Source: Pseudomonas hygromyciniae
Lineage (GTDB): Bacteria > Pseudomonadota > Gammaproteobacteria > Pseudomonadales > Pseudomonadaceae
Direction: 5' to 3'
NCBI RefSeq assembly: GCF_016925675.1
Contig: NZ_CP070506.1
Location: forward strand, 4,834,501 to 4,898,500
Length of the DNA: 64,000 bases
The notes below the pieces were generated by a model that saw only the letters and a program-made list of their open reading frames with translations, was not told the origin of the DNA and did no database searches. Each line of letters starts with the position of its first letter. Within the stretch, counting starts at the first letter, position 1. Positions 5,659 to 32,999 of this stretch are shown here, piece by piece. Made by a program: the position numbers and the translations under genes.

Positions 5659-7233
5659 ATGAATCCTCACGCCCTCAAAGGCTCGGCCCTGCTCGCTGCG
5701 GCAATGCTGCTGGCGTGCGCCCCGGCCTTTGCCAATGTCGAGCCGCAGGTCAAGGCGCCCACCATCGCCAAAGAACTGCAACAGGCCAAGACCTACACCA
5801 TCACCAGCCCGCCCACCGCGCCGCTGGAAATGGCCAAGCCTGAGCTGCCGGACCTCTCGGGCTACACCGCACAAGCCGTGGCGAAGAAAATCGTGCGCAG
5901 CAAGGCCGGCAAGGTCAGCGTGCGCCGGATGATGCAGGAAAACGCCCTCAAGGACTTTATCGGCGGCGACAACAAGATGGCCGAATGGGTGGTGCGCCAG
6001 CACGGCATCCCCCAGGCGATCTTTATCGACGACGGCTACATGAACCTCAAGGACCTGCTCAACAAGGTGCCCAAGCAATACCTGAGCGAAACCTCGCCCG
6101 GGGTATTCCTGGCCAGGCTGCCGATTGTGGTCGGCGAAAAGGGCATCCTCGAGATCGATAACCAGACCCAGGAATTGCGCCTGTCCCAGGAGGCCGGTTC
6201 GTTCCTGGTCAACGACGGCCAGCTGTTTGTGCGCGACACCAAGATCACCGGCTGGCGCGAGAAGGCCAACGGCCCGGCGACCTTTCGCTCGCCCAAGGAA
6301 TTCCGCCCGTTCCTGCTGGCCTGGGGCGGCACCCAGACCTATATCGTCAACAGCAAGATGGCCAGCTTCGGCTACGCCAACAGTAAGTCCTACGGCGTGA
6401 GTATTTCCCAGTACACGCCGAACATGGCCAAGGTCCTCAAGCGCCCGGAACCCACCGGCTGGATCGTCGATTCCGAGTTCTCGGACATGTGGTACGGGTT
6501 CTACTGCTACGAGACCACCGGTTTTGTGATCAAGGGCAGCACCTACAAAGACAACATCGTCTACGGCATCGACCCCCATGACCGTTCCCACGGCCTGATC
6601 ATTGCCGACAACACCGTCTACGGCACCAAGAAAAAGCACGGCATCATTATTTCCCGTGAGGTCAACGACAGCTTCATCTTCAACAACCGCAGCTACGACA
6701 ACAAGCTGTCGGGCCTGGTGATCGACCGTAACAGCGTGAACAACCTGATCGCCGACAACGAGATCTACCGCAACCACACCGACGGCATCACCCTCTATGA
6801 GAGCGGCGACAACCTGTTGTGGGGCAACAAGGTGATCAGCAACCGTCGCCACGGCATTCGGATCCGTAACAGCGTGAATATCCGCCTGTACGAGAACCTC
6901 GCCATGGCCAACGGCCTGACCGGCGTCTACGGCCATATCAAGGACCTGACCGATACCGACCGCGACATTGAGCTCGACCCGTTCGACGCCCAGGTCTCGC
7001 TGATCGTGGTCGGCGGCGAGCTGGCGGCCAATGGCAGCGGGCCGCTGTCCATCGACTCGCCGTTGAGCATCGAGCTGTACCGCGTGTCGATGCTCGCGCC
7101 GACCAAATCCAGTGGCATCAGCTTCTCCGGCGTTCTTGGTGAGCGCCAGGAAGAGATTCTCGACTTGCTGGTACGCCAGAAAAAAGCCGTGCTGATCGAC
7201 CCTGTCGAACGCCAGACCCCATTGCAGGACTGA
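5659..7233 (+). CDS. algG: Poly(beta-D-mannuronate) C5-epimerase AlgG
   Basis: Periplasmic enzyme converting mannuronate to guluronate residues within the polymer and forming part of the export scaffold. It folds as a right-handed beta-helix of carbohydrate-binding (CASH) repeats. With the ATG at 5659 the protein has 524 residues and a Sec signal ending at APAFA. The catalytic DPHD motif is at residues 305-308 (GIDPHDRSHG), with H307 the presumed catalytic histidine. Start choice: an ATG at 5644 overlaps the algE stop, but the one at 5659 has GATGGGAG spaced about 8 bases upstream and gives a clean signal peptide. The gene ends just before algX. Confidence 0.97.
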   Translation: MNPHALKGSALLAAAMLLACAPAFANVEPQVKAPTIAKELQQAKTYTITSPPTAPLEMAKPELPDLSGYTAQAVAKKIVRSKAGKVSVRRMMQENALKDFIGGDNKMAEWVVRQHGIPQAIFIDDGYMNLKDLLNKVPKQYLSETSPGVFLARLPIVVGEKGILEIDNQTQELRLSQEAGSFLVNDGQLFVRDTKITGWREKANGPATFRSPKEFRPFLLAWGGTQTYIVNSKMASFGYANSKSYGVSISQYTPNMAKVLKRPEPTGWIVDSEFSDMWYGFYCYETTGFVIKGSTYKDNIVYGIDPHDRSHGLIIADNTVYGTKKKHGIIISREVNDSFIFNNRSYDNKLSGLVIDRNSVNNLIADNEIYRNHTDGITLYESGDNLLWGNKVISNRRHGIRIRNSVNIRLYENLAMANGLTGVYGHIKDLTDTDRDIELDPFDAQVSLIVVGGELAANGSGPLSIDSPLSIELYRVSMLAPTKSSGISFSGVLGERQEEILDLLVRQKKAVLIDPVERQTPLQD

Positions 7234-7244
7234 GGATGACCTTT

Positions 7245-8693
7245 ATGCACCCACACATGATCAAGCTGCTCAGCCTCTCGGGTTTGACCCTCGGCATCCT
7301 GGCCGCCAGCAGCGGCGTGCGCGCCGATGAAATCAAGGCGCCGAACTTTACCGCCGAGCCGTGCTGCAACCTGTGCCCCGAGGCTCACGACGCAAAAAAC
7401 TACACCACCCGCTACCAGCAGAACTTCACCACCCTGGTACAGGCCCAGGGCGACTGGCTGTTCCGTACCCAGGAAGACCTGCGCACCGAATTCGACACCA
7501 CCCCGGCCGGCTACAAGCGCATGCAGCAACTGCACGATGCGTTCAAGAGCAAAGGCGTGGAGTTGGTGGTGGTCTACCAGCCGACCCGTGGCCTGGTAAA
7601 CCGCAACAAGCTCAACCCGGCAGAAAAAGCGCGCTTTGATTTCGACAAGGCCCTGGGCAACTACAAAACCATGCTTGGGCGTTTTGCCAAGATGGGCTAC
7701 GTGGTGCCGGACCTGTCGCCGCTGACCAACGAGCAGTTGCCCGACGCGATGCCGGCCCACGACTTCTACTTCCGTGGCGACCAGCACTGGACGCCGTATG
7801 GCGCCCAGCGCACCGCGAAAATCGTCGGGGCCAAGGTGCGGGCCATGCCTGAATTCGCCGGGATCCCCCAGCGTGAATTCGAGACCAAGAAATCCGGGCG
7901 CATGGGCAAGACCGGCACCCTGCACAACATGGCCGGGCAGTTGTGCGGCACCAGCTACGCGATCCAGTACATGGACCAGTTCAGCACCGAGCCCAAGGGC
8001 GAGGCGGCGGACGGCGACCTGTTCGGCGATTCCGGCAACCCGCAGATCACCCTGGTGGGCACCAGCCACAGCGGCAAAAACTACAACTTCGCCGGCTTCC
8101 TGGAACAGGAAATCGGCGCCGACATCCTTAACGTCGCCTTCCCCGGCGGTGGCCTGGAAGGCTCGATGATCCAGTACCTGGGCAGCGAAGAGTTCCAGAA
8201 AAGCCCACCGAAGATTCTGATCTGGGAGTTCTCGCCGCTGTATCGCCTCGACCAGGAAACCATCTACCGCCAGATGATGGCCCTGCTCGACAACGGCTGC
8301 GAAGGCAAGCCGGCGCAGATGAGCGCCAGCACCACCCTCAAGCCCGGCAAGAACGAGCTGATGGTCAACAGCAAGAACATGGACCTGCGCAATAGCCGCC
8401 ATCAGGTCGACATTCGCTTCGCCGATCCTTCGGTGAAAACCCTGCAAGCCACCCTCTGGTACATGAACGGTCGCCACGAGGACATCAAGATCGACAAACC
8501 CGAAACATCCGAGACAGACGGGCGTTTCGCCTTTGAACTGCGCACCGATGAAGACTGGGCCTCGCAGAACCTGCTGGCCGTGGAAGTGCAGGGCCCCGAA
8601 GCGGGCGCTGCCGCGCAGAAAGTCGAAGCGAAAATTTGCACACGCAACGTGTTCCCAAGCGGCGGTCAGCAGACCGCGCAACTTGGGCAATGA
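7245..8693 (+). CDS. algX: Alginate O-acetyltransferase AlgX
   Basis: Periplasmic SGNH-like O-acetyltransferase with a C-terminal carbohydrate-binding module; it is the terminal acetylase that binds the polymer. With the ATG at 7245 it has 482 residues and a signal peptide ending at SSGVRA. Catalytic residues are visible: D179 and H181 in RGDQHW, and S274 in VGTSHSG. Start choice: ATGs exist at 7236 and 7245; the only Shine-Dalgarno (TGAGG, 7231-7235) abuts 7236 but is 9 bases from 7245, so 7245 is preferred. The C-terminal ~120 residues are beta-rich, as in the family's binding module. It is followed after 8 bp by algL. Confidence 0.95.
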
Positions 8694-29137: not shown

Positions 29138-29736
29138 GGGTCGTCAACCTGTCATTGTGGCGAGCGGGCTTGCCCCGCGCTGGGCTGCGTAGCAGACCCA
29201 CTCCAGGCTCCGCGGTTGTTGCAGATACACCGAGCCAGCAGGTTTTGGGGCGGCTTCGCCACCCAACGCGGGGCAAGCCCGCTCGCCACAACAAGCGCTT
29301 GCGGCAGGTCGAGATTTTGGGGGGGCTGCAGCACAGCAGTTTTTTGGACTGTAGATTTCCTGTGGCGAGCGGGCTTGCCCCGCGCTGGGCTGCGTAGCAG
29401 CCCCTCCCCAGGCACCGCCGTTGTTTCAGATACACCGAGCCAGCAGGTTTTGGGGCGGCTCCGCCACCCAACGCGGGGGCAAGCCCGCTCGCCACAACAA
29501 GCGCTTGCGGCAGGTCGAGATTTTTTTGGGGATAGCTGCAGCACAACAGTTTTTTTGGACTGTAGATTTCCTGTGGCGAGCGGGCTTGCCCCGCGCTGGG
29601 CTGCGTAGCAGACCCAATCCAAGCACCGCCGTTGTTGCAGATACACCGAGCCAGCAGGTTTTGGGGCGGCTTCGCCACCCAGCGCGGGGCAAGCCCGCTC
29701 GCCACAACCAGAGCGCTTGCTCGCCACTGCCACAGG
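29138..29736. other. 599-bp non-coding convergent region filled by a REPIN array
   Basis: Lies between the stops of the YkgJ-type gene and the chemoreceptor gene, which point at each other. Almost all of it is three REPIN copies and their spacers. Frames open across it on both strands consist of repeat translations. Confidence 0.85.
29156..29707. repeat. Tandem array of three REPINs (GTGGCGAGCGGG class)
   Basis: Copies at 29156-29290, 29361-29496 and 29572-29707, each about 135 bp. Each has arm TGTGGCGAGCGGGCTTGCCC at the left and GGGCAAGCCCGCTCGCCACA at the right and an internal segment with ACACCGAGCCAGCAGG. Two similar 70-75-bp spacers (with AAGCGCTTGCGGCAGGTCGA and TTTGGACTGTAGATTTCC) join them, giving repeat units of about 205 and 211 bp. 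A partial start of a further spacer (GAGCGCTTGC) follows the third copy. Confidence 0.93.
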
Positions 29737-31311
29737 TTAGCGGCGTTTGCCCCAGAACTCTTCCGCCAAGCGCCGCAGGTCTTCCGCAAGCGCCGCCACG
29801 TCGCCGGAGCTGAGCTGGCTCTGCTGACCGGCGCTGACGGTCGCCTCGCCCGCATTGCGGATGCCGACGATATTGCGATTGATGTCCTCGCTCACCGCGC
29901 TCTGTTCTTCCACCGCCGCCGCAATCTGCACACTCATGGCCGTGATCTGGTTGACCCGCTGACTGATGCCATCCAGGGCCGACGCGGCGCGCTGGGCATG
30001 GTCGACGCTGACTTCGACATGCTGGCTGCTTTGTTCCATGGCCATCACCGCATCACGGGCGCCGCCCTGCAAGGTGCTGATCATGCGTTGGATTTCATTG
30101 GTCGATTGCTGGGTACGTTGCGCCAGGCCACGCACTTCGTCGGCCACCACCGCAAAGCCACGGCCCTGCTCGCCAGCCCGCGCCGCCTCGATGGCCGCGT
30201 TGAGGGCCAACAGGTTGGTCTGTTCGGCAATCGCCCGGATCACTTCCAGCACGCTGGAGATATCCCCGCTGTGGCTTTCCAGTTGATGGATCACGCTGGT
30301 GGCCCTGGCCAGTTCCTGGGACAGGCGCAGTACCGCATCGCGGCTTTCGTCCACGCGCTGATGGCCTTCACGGGTCTCGCTGCCGGCCTGGTCTGCCGCT
30401 TTCGAGGCTTGTTGGGCGTGGTTGGCGACTTGCGCCACGCTGGCCGCCATCTGTTGGATGGCGGTCGCCACTTGGTCGGTCTGGCTCTGCTGGCCCAGGC
30501 TGCTGGTGTGGCTGCTGTCCAGTTGCTGGGCCAGGGCGGCGGCGTGCCCTGATAAACGCTGCGACGCATCGCCAATCCGCCCAACCACTGCGCCCACCTG
30601 GGCTTCGAGCATTTGCATGGCAAATTCGATTTGCCCCAGCTCGTCCGCGCGTCCGGTGTAGATCGCCTGGCTGACGGGGTTGTCGGCAATCTGCCGCGCC
30701 CGCTCGCTCAATTGCCTCAGGGGCCGCAACAAAAGATTGATGCCCAAGACGCCTGCCGCGCCCACCGCAGCCAGGCCCAGCACCTGCAACGCCCATGAAT
30801 AACTGGCCAACCCGGCCCCCACGCCCCAGGTCAGCGCGCACGTCGCGCCAGTGACCAGCGACAACTTCATAGGCATTTCCAGCACTGGCCGCAAGCGCCG
30901 GGAACCTGCGCGCAAACGCGCATAGGCGCGCTCCGCAGCCAACACCCGCCGCGCATCGGGCTTGGTGCGCACCGACTGGTATTCCACCGCCACACCGTCA
31001 CGTGTGACCGGCGAGGCATAGGCGCTGACCCAATAGTGATCACCGTTCTTACAGCGATTTTTCACCATGCCCATCCACGAGCGGCCACTTTTGAGGGTCT
31101 GCCACATGTGGGCAAAAGCCGCCGACGGCATGTCCGGATGGCGTAGCAGATTATGTGGCGCGCCCAGCAGCTCCTCACGGCTGTAGCCACTGACGTCGAT
31201 AAAGTCCTGGTTGGCGTAAGTAATCGAACTGCCTAGGTCAGTGGTCGAAAGGATGTTGGCGTCTTGGGCAATGTCCACACTTCGACCCGTGACCGGGAGA
31301 TTGATCTTCAT
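29737..31311 (-). CDS. Aer-like methyl-accepting chemotaxis protein with PAS domain
   Basis: A 524-residue chemoreceptor. The N-terminal PAS domain (about residues 10-110, with [24 protein letters not shown]) is of the Aer redox-sensing type and may bind FAD. A central pair of hydrophobic helices (about 150-200), a short HAMP-like linker and the signalling domain follow, with the hairpin tip [20 protein letters not shown]. It signals energy or redox state to CheA. The ATG at 31311 (MKINLPVTG) is chosen because Aer proteins begin about 10 residues before PAS; a longer reading from 31368 is not supported. It lies 96 bp downstream of the solute-binding/Rid fusion gene. Confidence 0.94.
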
Positions 31312-31337
31312 GGAAAGCGCGCTCGGGATTATTGGAG

Positions 31338-31359
31338 GAGTCGGCAGGGGCACCGACTC
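31338..31359 (-). other. Hairpin between the SBP-Rid fusion and chemoreceptor genes
   Basis: Perfect 7-bp stem GAGTCGG/CCGACTC with an 8-base loop, in the gap between the two minus-strand genes. There is no T-run, so it may be an mRNA processing or stability element rather than a terminator. Confidence 0.4.
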
Positions 31360-31407
31360 TAAGCGCACCGGTTGAGCAAATACTGATCCAGCTCATGTTC
31401 CACGCAT

Positions 31408-32619
31408 TTAGTTGCCCGGTGCCCCGGCCATGGATCCGGGAGGATCCTCGACCATGGCCACGCACTCGACCGCCACCCGTGCGCCGTGCGGCAGCCGGCG
31501 CACGGTCAGCACACTGCGGGCGGGCAGCCGACCTCGGGCGAAATAACCCAGGTACACGTCGTTGACCAGGTTCAGGTCCTCCAGCTCGACCAGCATCAAG
31601 GTGCACTTGACCACCCGGTCCAGCGAGGACTGATGACGCGACAATAGTTCGCGCAGCGTGTTCATCACCTGCCTCATCTGCGCGCCCGTGCCGCCCTTCA
31701 CGAGGTTGAGCCTGGCATCCACCCCCGCAATGCTGGAGGTGTACAGCATGCTACCGACCCGCACGGCCTCGGAAAACGGCAGGTCCAGGTCCCCGGGGTA
31801 AAACTGCGGCCCGTCCTGGTCCTGGGCGTTGGCGGCGTCAGGTTCCTCCTGTGGATAACCCTGGAGAATGCGCTGATACTCGCCACTCTGCTTGAGCTGC
31901 TCCAGTGCGCGGTTCAGCTCGCTGCGCAACTCGGGGTCGGACTTGCGCACGCCGATGGCCACGGCGGTGCCCATCTGCTGGCCGGTCACCGGTGGGCCGA
32001 CGAAATCAAAAGTCTGGCCCCGCTCAGTGTCGAGCAACTCCTGGCGGATTTCGGCCTTGCCTTGCAACGTGGCGTCGATATCACCGGCTACCAGGCTGCG
32101 GATCAACTGGTCGTTGAGCCAGAAGCTCTTGATGATCACCCCGGCGGGCGCCCATTGCGCCAGGGCGAAGGCTTCACGATTGCTGCCGGTCAGCACCCCG
32201 ATGCGCTTGCCCTTGAGGGCGCGCACCGTGGGCAGCAGCCCAGAGTACTTGCGGGCCACCAGGTGGGTGGTGAGGGGATAGAGGTCGTCGGTGAAGTCGA
32301 TCAACTGCCGGCGCTGGGGAGTGGATGCCATGCCCATGATTGCATCGAAACGCCGGCTTTCCAGGGCATCGATGCTGCGGGTAAATACCTGGTCGACCCA
32401 GGTGCAGCGCACATCGAGCTGGGCGCATAGGGCATCGCCCAGTTCGATGTTCAAGCCCACCAACTGCCCTTGGGCATTGCGGCTTTCATAGGGCGGGAAC
32501 TGCGGGGAGATTGCGAAGCGGATCTCGCTGCGCGGCGCAGTATCAGCCACCGCCCCCACAAAAAAGCCGCTCGACAGCAGCGACCCAACAGACAATACAA
32601 AGATCTTTGCCAAAGCCAT
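31408..32619 (-). CDS. Secreted fusion: amino-acid-type solute-binding protein plus Rid (YjgF) domain
   Basis: A 403-residue protein in three parts. Residues 1-25 are a Sec signal peptide (FFVGAVA). Residues 31-258 are a family-3 extracellular solute-binding domain (PPYESRNAQGQLVGLNIEL, then FDAIMGMASTPQRRQLIDFT). After a Q/D/P-rich linker, residues 276-392 are a Rid/YjgF domain that keeps the catalytic arginine (R368 in LPARSVLTV) and the conserved glutamate (E385 in VECVA). Rid proteins deaminate reactive enamines or imines in the cytosol; here the domain would be periplasmic. The start at 32619 has AAAGGGA 7-8 bases upstream. No ABC transporter gene is adjacent. The domains are recognised with confidence; the joint function is unknown. 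Confidence 0.85.
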   Translation of the reverse strand: MALAKIFVLSVGSLLSSGFFVGAVADTAPRSEIRFAISPQFPPYESRNAQGQLVGLNIELGDALCAQLDVRCTWVDQVFTRSIDALESRRFDAIMGMASTPQRRQLIDFTDDLYPLTTHLVARKYSGLLPTVRALKGKRIGVLTGSNREAFALAQWAPAGVIIKSFWLNDQLIRSLVAGDIDATLQGKAEIRQELLDTERGQTFDFVGPPVTGQQMGTAVAIGVRKSDPELRSELNRALEQLKQSGEYQRILQGYPQEEPDAANAQDQDGPQFYPGDLDLPFSEAVRVGSMLYTSSIAGVDARLNLVKGGTGAQMRQVMNTLRELLSRHQSSLDRVVKCTLMLVELEDLNLVNDVYLGYFARGRLPARSVLTVRRLPHGARVAVECVAMVEDPPGSMAGAPGN

Positions 32620-32765: not shown

Positions 32766-32999
32766 TCAGCGTTTACCCATCGAGCGACGGGTGCCTGGCG
32801 GCGCCATACCCGGGGTTTTAGTGTGACCGTTCTTCGCGCCGTTTTTGTACCACGGCTGATTGCTGTCTTTCGCCCCGGCCAGTTCACCCGGTTTGAAAGG
32901 GAATTTGAAGGCCGGGATCACCGGTTTGGCTTCACTGTCGAGGCTGTCTGGATCAGCCAGTTCGGCGCTTTCAACAGGCGGTTGTGTGGGGCAATTCAT
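32766..32999 (-). CDS. Small hypothetical protein
   Basis: A 77-residue, Pro/Lys-rich protein without membrane segments or known motif (FKFPFKPGELAGAKDSNQPWYK is the most ordered-looking part). It ends in a basic tail (GTRRSMGKR). It is probably largely disordered, with an acidic N-terminal third and a basic C-terminus. GGAG lies 6 bases before the ATG, which supports translation. It is monocistronic, divergent from the RND operon and upstream of the solute-binding/Rid gene on the same strand. No function is proposed. Confidence 0.65.
   Translation of the reverse strand: MNCPTQPPVESAELADPDSLDSEAKPVIPAFKFPFKPGELAGAKDSNQPWYKNGAKNGHTKTPGMAPPGTRRSMGKR

Follow-up and report, generated by a model that had tools for sequence, protein, structure and literature searches.

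Periplasmic solute-binding proteins (SBPs) of the HisJ and LAO (ArgT) type (PF00497, TIGR01096) and Rid proteins such as RidA, YjgF and UK114 (PF01042, TIGR00004) are the closest described counterparts of the two halves of the protein analysed here. Rid proteins are guards against the imines and enamines that arise from cytosolic enzymes, and the family is normally thought to be intracellular; we know of no pathway that supplies reactive imines in the periplasm. The D-glutamate locus dguRABC of Pseudomonas aeruginosa would offer a precedent for pairing a Rid protein with a periplasmic SBP: the Rid protein DguB, which we take to be PA5083, lies beside the SBP DguC, the two being separate genes there. 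No paper on dguB with D-glutamate in P. aeruginosa was found in the open-access literature. PA5083 is classed as Rid2 and was purified and assayed, according to the accessible part of the source (PMC5619798).

Open-access literature, with subscription papers and supplements outside the search, yielded no paper on an SBP-Rid fusion or on exported Rid proteins and no functional description of the stand-alone Rid proteins that carry leaders, in keeping with the preliminary description of this DNA, which held the architecture to be seemingly undescribed. The accessible portion of a survey of the Rid family mentions tandem Rid fusions and lacks the terms 'signal peptide', 'periplasm' and 'secreted' (PMC4433059), and that of an article on gene fusions has Rid terms only in its reference list (PMC4921024). 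In the parts available, the RidA protein of one pathway is not described as periplasmic (PMC9537276) and nicotine breakdown is predicted to involve a Rid6 protein (PMC7688666).

The stretch of DNA analysed (hereafter the window) covers 64,000 nucleotides of a Pseudomonas hygromyciniae contig and carries a gene in which a HisJ/LAO-type SBP is joined to a C-terminal Rid domain. The fusion differs from HisJ and LAO by this addition, by replaced pocket residues, by scores below the cut-offs of the NCBIfam SBP models compared and by having no PF00528 permease nearby. It shares with RidA, YjgF and UK114 a sequence match to solved Rid proteins and the active-site Arg and Glu/Asp, whereas its leader, Cys pair, Phe in place of a Tyr, SBP partner and score below the TIGR00004 cut-off set it apart. 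With the stand-alone leader-bearing Rid proteins, relatives of which kind group with the fused Rids, it has the leader, the Cys pair, the Arg and the Glu/Asp in common, although they are without an SBP domain. That members of a Rid clade mostly bear leaders, and that one has been joined to a solute trap, implies that reactive imines occur in the periplasm or that Rid proteins do another job there, for example chaperoning.

The fusion gene and its product

The fusion gene, delimited by ORF analysis, Pfam and orthologues, occupies positions 31408-32619 on the minus strand, with its ATG at 32619 and its stop codon at 31408, and encodes 403 amino acids in one intact open reading frame. Pfam matches were obtained to SBP_bac_3 (PF00497; residues 33-255, E 5.9e-30, 104.2 bits against a cut-off of 26.4) and to Ribonuc_L-PSP (PF01042; residues 281-390, E 1.7e-19, 70.5 bits against 27.3), and the two-lobed fold of the former half agrees with its family. 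Together with alignments, these delimit a HisJ/LAO-type domain at residues 31-256 (31852-32529) and a Rid domain at residues 279-392 (31444-31785), the latter with R368, E385 and the clade-specific C339 and C386; a variable linker of high dN lies between them (residues 257-278, 31786-31851). The architecture, the coordinates and the catalytic residues R368 and E385 in one frame thus agree with the preliminary description, from which the strand was absent. No Rfam match was found near the gene. Automatic names of such fusions include 'transporter substrate-binding domain-containing protein' and 'lysine-arginine-ornithine-binding protein/reactive intermediate/imine deaminase'.

The finer family models fit less well. 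The Rid part scores 78.7 against TIGR00004 (NCBIfam cut-off 106.25), a threshold passed by one stand-alone Rid (L052, 115.5) and narrowly missed by another (L066, 106.2), and the fusion scores under the cut-off of every NCBIfam SBP model compared. AlphaFold2 predicted two confident domains (mean pLDDT 83.3, pTM 0.56) joined by a disordered segment at 259-269, where pLDDT falls below 50. Since the VIA rows mostly cover model residues 27-262, the Rid fold is assigned from sequence, through the match of the window protein to 1oni (E 3.8e-16) and that of a profile of 30 fused Rids to solved Rid proteins (E 6.4e-31). Both domains are under purifying selection, with dN/dS of 0.09-0.36 for Rid and 0.05-0.14 for SBP in 15 pairs, among which Rid is the faster-evolving domain.

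A putative Sec signal peptide spans residues 1-25 (32545-32619), with a 10-residue hydropathy of 2.51, low confidence in the AlphaFold2 model and a hydrophobic core followed by an A-V-A site before residue 26, recognised with a script and visual inspection rather than SignalP. A hydrophobic N-terminal stretch is present in all 30 fused proteins (10-residue hydropathy of at least 2.18) and a lipobox-like Cys in 13 of these 30. A periplasmic location of the fusion is well supported by inference, and export, as proposed in the preliminary description, is most likely.

Distribution of the fusion and its leader-bearing Rid relatives

The fusion was identified in at least 30 of 298 genomes of the genus Pseudomonas, the window included; six copies are of the window type (type-1) and 24 of a second type (SBP2-Rid). 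The figure is a lower bound, since only the 32 strongest places outside the window were fetched, of which 29 are fusions; the other three hold a leader and a Rid domain without an SBP (L035) and two stand-alone Rids with leaders judged by eye (L051, L052). In L035 (8357-8869), the fusion gene is without its SBP part and a lipobox leader is joined to the Rid domain. A sequence matching the Rid part with an E value of 1e-10 or lower is present in 107 of the 298 genomes. Both domains are present in all 15 protein clusters matching the Rid part (402-405 aa) and in 113 of the 119 clusters obtained with a distant fused relative as query. The recurrence of the same fusion in these genomes and clusters rules out a frameshift or an assembly or sequencing error, against which the preliminary description had cautioned, and the domain search that it proposed finds the fusion to be frequent in Pseudomonas.

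The names of the 119 clusters are mostly Pseudomonas, along with one Nitratireductor thuwali (P0129), the only fusion outside Pseudomonas relied on here, and one Rhodococcus sp. IEGM1300 (P0062), whose Pseudomonas-like fusion is probably mislabelled or contaminated. Among the best 80 of 512 Rid-part relatives in named genomes, 23 are fusions, all titled Pseudomonas. An SBP was found in none of five long open frames fetched outside the genus, a check covering the stronger long frames, and in none of five further ones within it; L066 and L069, likewise long frames, appear by eye to be stand-alone Rids.

A phylogenetic tree of 174 Rid rows, built from few columns and with several fused rows representing the same genome from two collections, places the fused Rids in one group (58 rows including L035, SH-aLRT 93). 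Within it, the 12 rows of the window type (support 100) are sister to the 46 of the SBP2-Rid type (88), and the whole group belongs to a branch (134 rows, SH-aLRT 93) that is separate from canonical RidA. Leaders were searched for with a 10-residue hydropathy scan at a threshold of 1.8, applied uniformly to 57 stand-alone members of this clade in named genomes and to 36 control Rids taken by Pfam family (L193 gave no match, and L191, the fusion itself, was left out). They were found in 39 of the 57 relatives and in one of the 36 controls. Homologues of one stand-alone Rid (P0135-P0254, the 120 among the matches listed; 8000 candidates were scored, 7913 of them at E 1e-20 or better) carry a leader in 118 of 120 cases and the Cys pair, the Arg and the Glu/Asp in all 120. 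The preliminary description treated Rid proteins as cytosolic, in line with the usual view of the family; the leader, however, is not peculiar to the fusion gene and is common in its Rid clade. The relatives that passed the scan include members of the cyanobacteria, Acidobacteria, Gemmatimonadetes, Phycisphaerales and Proteobacteria. The 18 that failed include three Chloroflexi (L104, L153, L154), three with weak-looking leaders (L114, L121, L152) and one masked sequence (L131).

Cys at both 339 and 386 was observed in all 57 fused rows, in 53 of 57 and all 16 rows of two stand-alone sets (L035 being counted in the second) and in none of 41 controls. By its place in the tree, these two Cys and its hydropathy-predicted leader, the window Rid belongs to the leader-bearing clade. 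C339 and C386 lie in model strands 336-343 and 382-389, which adjoin each other in the Rid fold, and a disulfide between them is therefore plausible; the other two of the exactly four Cys residues in the protein, C65 and C72, align with two Cys of HisJ. Seven relatives have an in-frame stop at most 29 residues upstream of the matched start (L092, L096, L104, L106, L107, L147, L153), and because six of these keep both Cys, the Cys pair and export are not strictly linked. One control has a leader without the Cys pair (L157), and a long-branch control (L184) groups inside the leader-bearing clade.

R368 and E385 of the window protein occupy the conserved Arg and Glu/Asp columns of the Rid family, with Arg in all 57 fused rows and Glu (54) or Asp (3) at position 385. 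The Tyr usual in RidA (31 of 41 controls), presumably Tyr17, has given way to Phe in all 57 fused rows; in the S-G motif, all six fused type-1 copies have Ser, Thr, Asn or Asp where Gly is expected. Owing to these two replacements, Rid activity could be altered or lost, and the conserved Arg368 and Glu385 are what points to catalysis.

No recurring partner gene was detected beside the stand-alone relatives, the best being GMC oxidoreductase with three of 82 neighbouring proteins; this tally applied Pfam to ORFs chosen crudely as the longest nearby, 82 of 99, after 17 had been dropped by hand (14 cyanobacterial, mostly near-duplicates, and three others). The leader-bearing stand-alone Rids go by the name 'Rid family hydrolase', for example in Congregibacter.

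Organisation and history of the locus

Downstream of the fusion and on the same minus strand lies a gene for a PAS-HAMP-MCP chemoreceptor (29737-31311; Pfam and synteny), in which Pfam detects no periplasmic domain, the PAS sensor being cytosolic. The conserved leader between the fusion stop and the MCP start (31312-31407, minus strand; nine loci aligned) is nearly identical in five loci with a fused and four with an unfused type-1 SBP, so the MCP gene may have its own promoter within it. Between MCP and YkgJ, 29156-29714 holds three direct repeats of 143 nt whose long halves are inverted (REP/BIME-like), at the position where some genomes carry the second fusion, SBP2-Rid; no credible remnant of it was found there in the window (best E 0.12). 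Upstream of the fusion, a conserved gene for a small protein of 77 aa (32766-32999, minus strand) is present; the protein has no NCBIfam match.

None of the genome's 72 PF00528 permease matches falls in the window, and the preliminary description was right, for permeases of this type, that none lies beside the gene. As each of the seven closest unfused SBP paralogues has a PF00528 permease within about 1 kb, the fusion does not have the setting of an ABC substrate-binding subunit, a distant shared permease being possible. Apart from the fusion, no Rid gene of this genome lies within 10 kb of an SBP match. The genome has eight other Rid genes, including the RidA-like L158 (the best PF01042 match), and the fusion therefore need not be a housekeeping deaminase.

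Across 33 loci (the 30 fusions, L035, L051 and L052), the 77-aa gene, CheV and GNAT were each found in 28, YkgJ in 27, the RND pair in 23 and a full-length MCP in eight. The fullest order along transcription is an unfused SBP1, the PAS-HAMP-MCP gene and SBP2-Rid (L037, L048, L050); SBP1 and SBP2-Rid occur without MCP in L042, L043, L046 and L049. In L041, all that is left of the MCP gene between the two SBP genes is a pair of fragments (7148-7483). A fused type-1 copy with MCP behind it and no SBP2-Rid is the arrangement of the window and of L021-L024; in L025 the fused type-1 copy stands alone.

A search of an equal number of genus genomes (298) with an unfused SBP1, the classes being assigned by reading the match table, gave 57 genomes with matches at 1e-75: 38 with an unfused type-1 SBP, six with a fused type-1 copy and the rest with SBP2-Rid alone. 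Among the 38, eight also hold SBP2-Rid, 29 are without a Rid at the locus (as judged in the 7 kb fetched) and one has a Rid remnant; in the last (L252, 2369-3122), the type-1 SBP gene breaks off around residue 209 and the last part of a Rid domain comes next, which looks like the outcome of a deletion. No Rid remnants were detected behind the unfused SBP1 of the eight SBP2-Rid loci, in four of which the MCP leader comes next. The remaining 30 unfused loci occupy the same place, with the 77-aa gene and the RND pair in 30 of 30 and CheV, GNAT and YkgJ in 29 of 30, and MCP lies directly behind SBP1 in nine of them. The Rid part is often dispensed with where the SBP relative stays. The view that it is always kept at the locus, to which earlier loci collected by a Rid search had led, is thereby refuted. 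The fusion presented as a unit in the preliminary description is real and frequent, but related genomes often carry the SBP without a Rid at the same place; that 29 of 38 unfused loci lack it speaks against a vital role of the Rid half.

In the SBP tree, which took in eight of the 38 unfused SBP1, the window type (seven rows, 91/85) and these eight (100/99) form one side of a branch (100/100). One fusion followed by duplication and loss of the Rid part from SBP1 would explain these patterns; alternatively, the window type may have regained its Rid by recombination. A recent independent fusion in this lineage is not favoured, the fused Rids forming one group and the window SBP being sister to the unfused SBP1.

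Ligand pocket and probable function

The SBP pocket was compared with that of HisJ in a numbering counted on the alignment. R77 of HisJ is taken here as the Arg that binds the carboxylate, D161 as the Asp that holds the alpha-amino group and D11 as the other acidic residue that binds an amino group. R103 of the fusion corresponds to R77, which is kept in 38 of 38 proteins, and G187 to D161. At the latter position all 14 type-1 proteins, the window copy included, have Gly, and the 24 SBP2-Rid proteins have Asp (19) or Asn (5); at D11, type-1 proteins have Ser, Ala or Val and all 24 SBP2-Rid proteins Glu. The window copy has replacements at D11, S69, S70, T121 and D161, and of the pair that marks an alpha-amino acid pocket it retains the Arg and has Gly for the Asp. 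In a lysine sensor based on LAO, according to the accessible text, D161I raised the Kd from 97 to 2000 uM and R77L to 306 uM (PMC4917951). The 'amino-acid-type' binding domain of the preliminary description is thus apt for the HisJ/LAO fold; the ligand class is not safe, the pocket being without the Asp for the alpha-ammonium group. An ordinary amino acid is an unlikely ligand of the window type and a free basic amino acid probably is not bound; an alpha-imino or alpha-keto acid would fit better. On the D161/D11 pattern, SBP2-Rid may bind a basic amino acid.

The reading we prefer, at a probability of roughly 0.45, is that of a periplasmic bifunctional protein that would both bind and deaminate; we infer its periplasmic location, disulfides, trimer, ligand and catalysis from the features described above. 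The fusion would be exported by Sec, its SBP domain would close on a small carboxylate, possibly an alpha-imino or alpha-keto acid that is substrate or product of the Rid reaction, and a flexible linker would join it to the Rid domain, presumably a trimer like other Rids, for the hydrolysis of imines or enamines. The protein would thereby trap reactive imino acids and render them harmless outside the cytosol, an accessory role that many relatives lack. Iminoarginine is a substrate in vitro for Rid2 and Rid3 proteins of Pseudomonas, as stated in the available part of PMC5619798, which would suit fusion to an LAO-type SBP. A wider scenario, rather doubtful as a whole, would have a disulfide-bonded exported Rid clade hydrolysing imino acids outside the cytosol in several phyla, which Pseudomonas wired to a rebuilt former amino-acid SBP (Arg kept, both amino-group acids lost) that passes imino or keto acids to the enzyme. 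The SBP of the fusion hints at the ligand class within one protein amenable to testing, and a natural comparison is offered by genomes that differ in whether this locus includes the Rid part.

Four other explanations were weighed against the bifunctional reading. The protein could be an orphan SBP that does no more than bind, its Rid domain serving for trimerisation without catalysis or being a relic, as might be expected from an unfused type-1 SBP in 38 of 298 genomes (29 without Rid at the locus), from the faster evolution of Rid than of SBP and from the Tyr and Gly replacements at active-site positions; yet Arg368 and Glu/Asp385 are invariant among the 57 fused rows, Rid is under purifying selection and L035 has lost its SBP and kept its Rid, all of which makes this explanation unlikely. 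Cytosolic Rid proteins reportedly act as holdases, and an exported Rid might be a holdase under oxidising or chlorinating conditions with the SBP as its tether. The width of the leader-bearing clade, its want of a recurring partner and, in the available part of the source, the chlorination-linked activity of a Rid protein (PMC6435465) agree with such a stress chaperone. It is nevertheless quite improbable, given that the catalytic residues are conserved and that the conserved SBP fold suggests a ligand.

A role in transport, with the orphan SBP feeding a distant permease of the HisQMP/AotQMP type and Rid clearing imines en route, has a parallel in HisJ and ArgT, which share one permease in enterobacteria, and the closest SBP paralogue (C1:3741092) has permease genes beside it; the empty window with respect to PF00528 and the pocket changes in the type-1 copies nonetheless leave it with slender odds. 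Least probable by a little is that the ligand-loaded SBP, fused or not, signals as a chemotaxis co-receptor through the adjoining MCP: this receptor, whose PAS sensor is cytosolic and in which Pfam recognises nothing periplasmic, is absent from most loci and fragmentary in L041, even though it is full-length at eight of 33 loci, directly follows the unfused SBP1 at nine of 30 and has CheV nearby at 28 of 33 and 29 of 30 loci.

Rid domains of this kind were also observed in other architectures (P0130, P0132, P0133), namely a short-chain dehydrogenase with Rid, Rid with an extra C-terminal part and Rid with PF03724.
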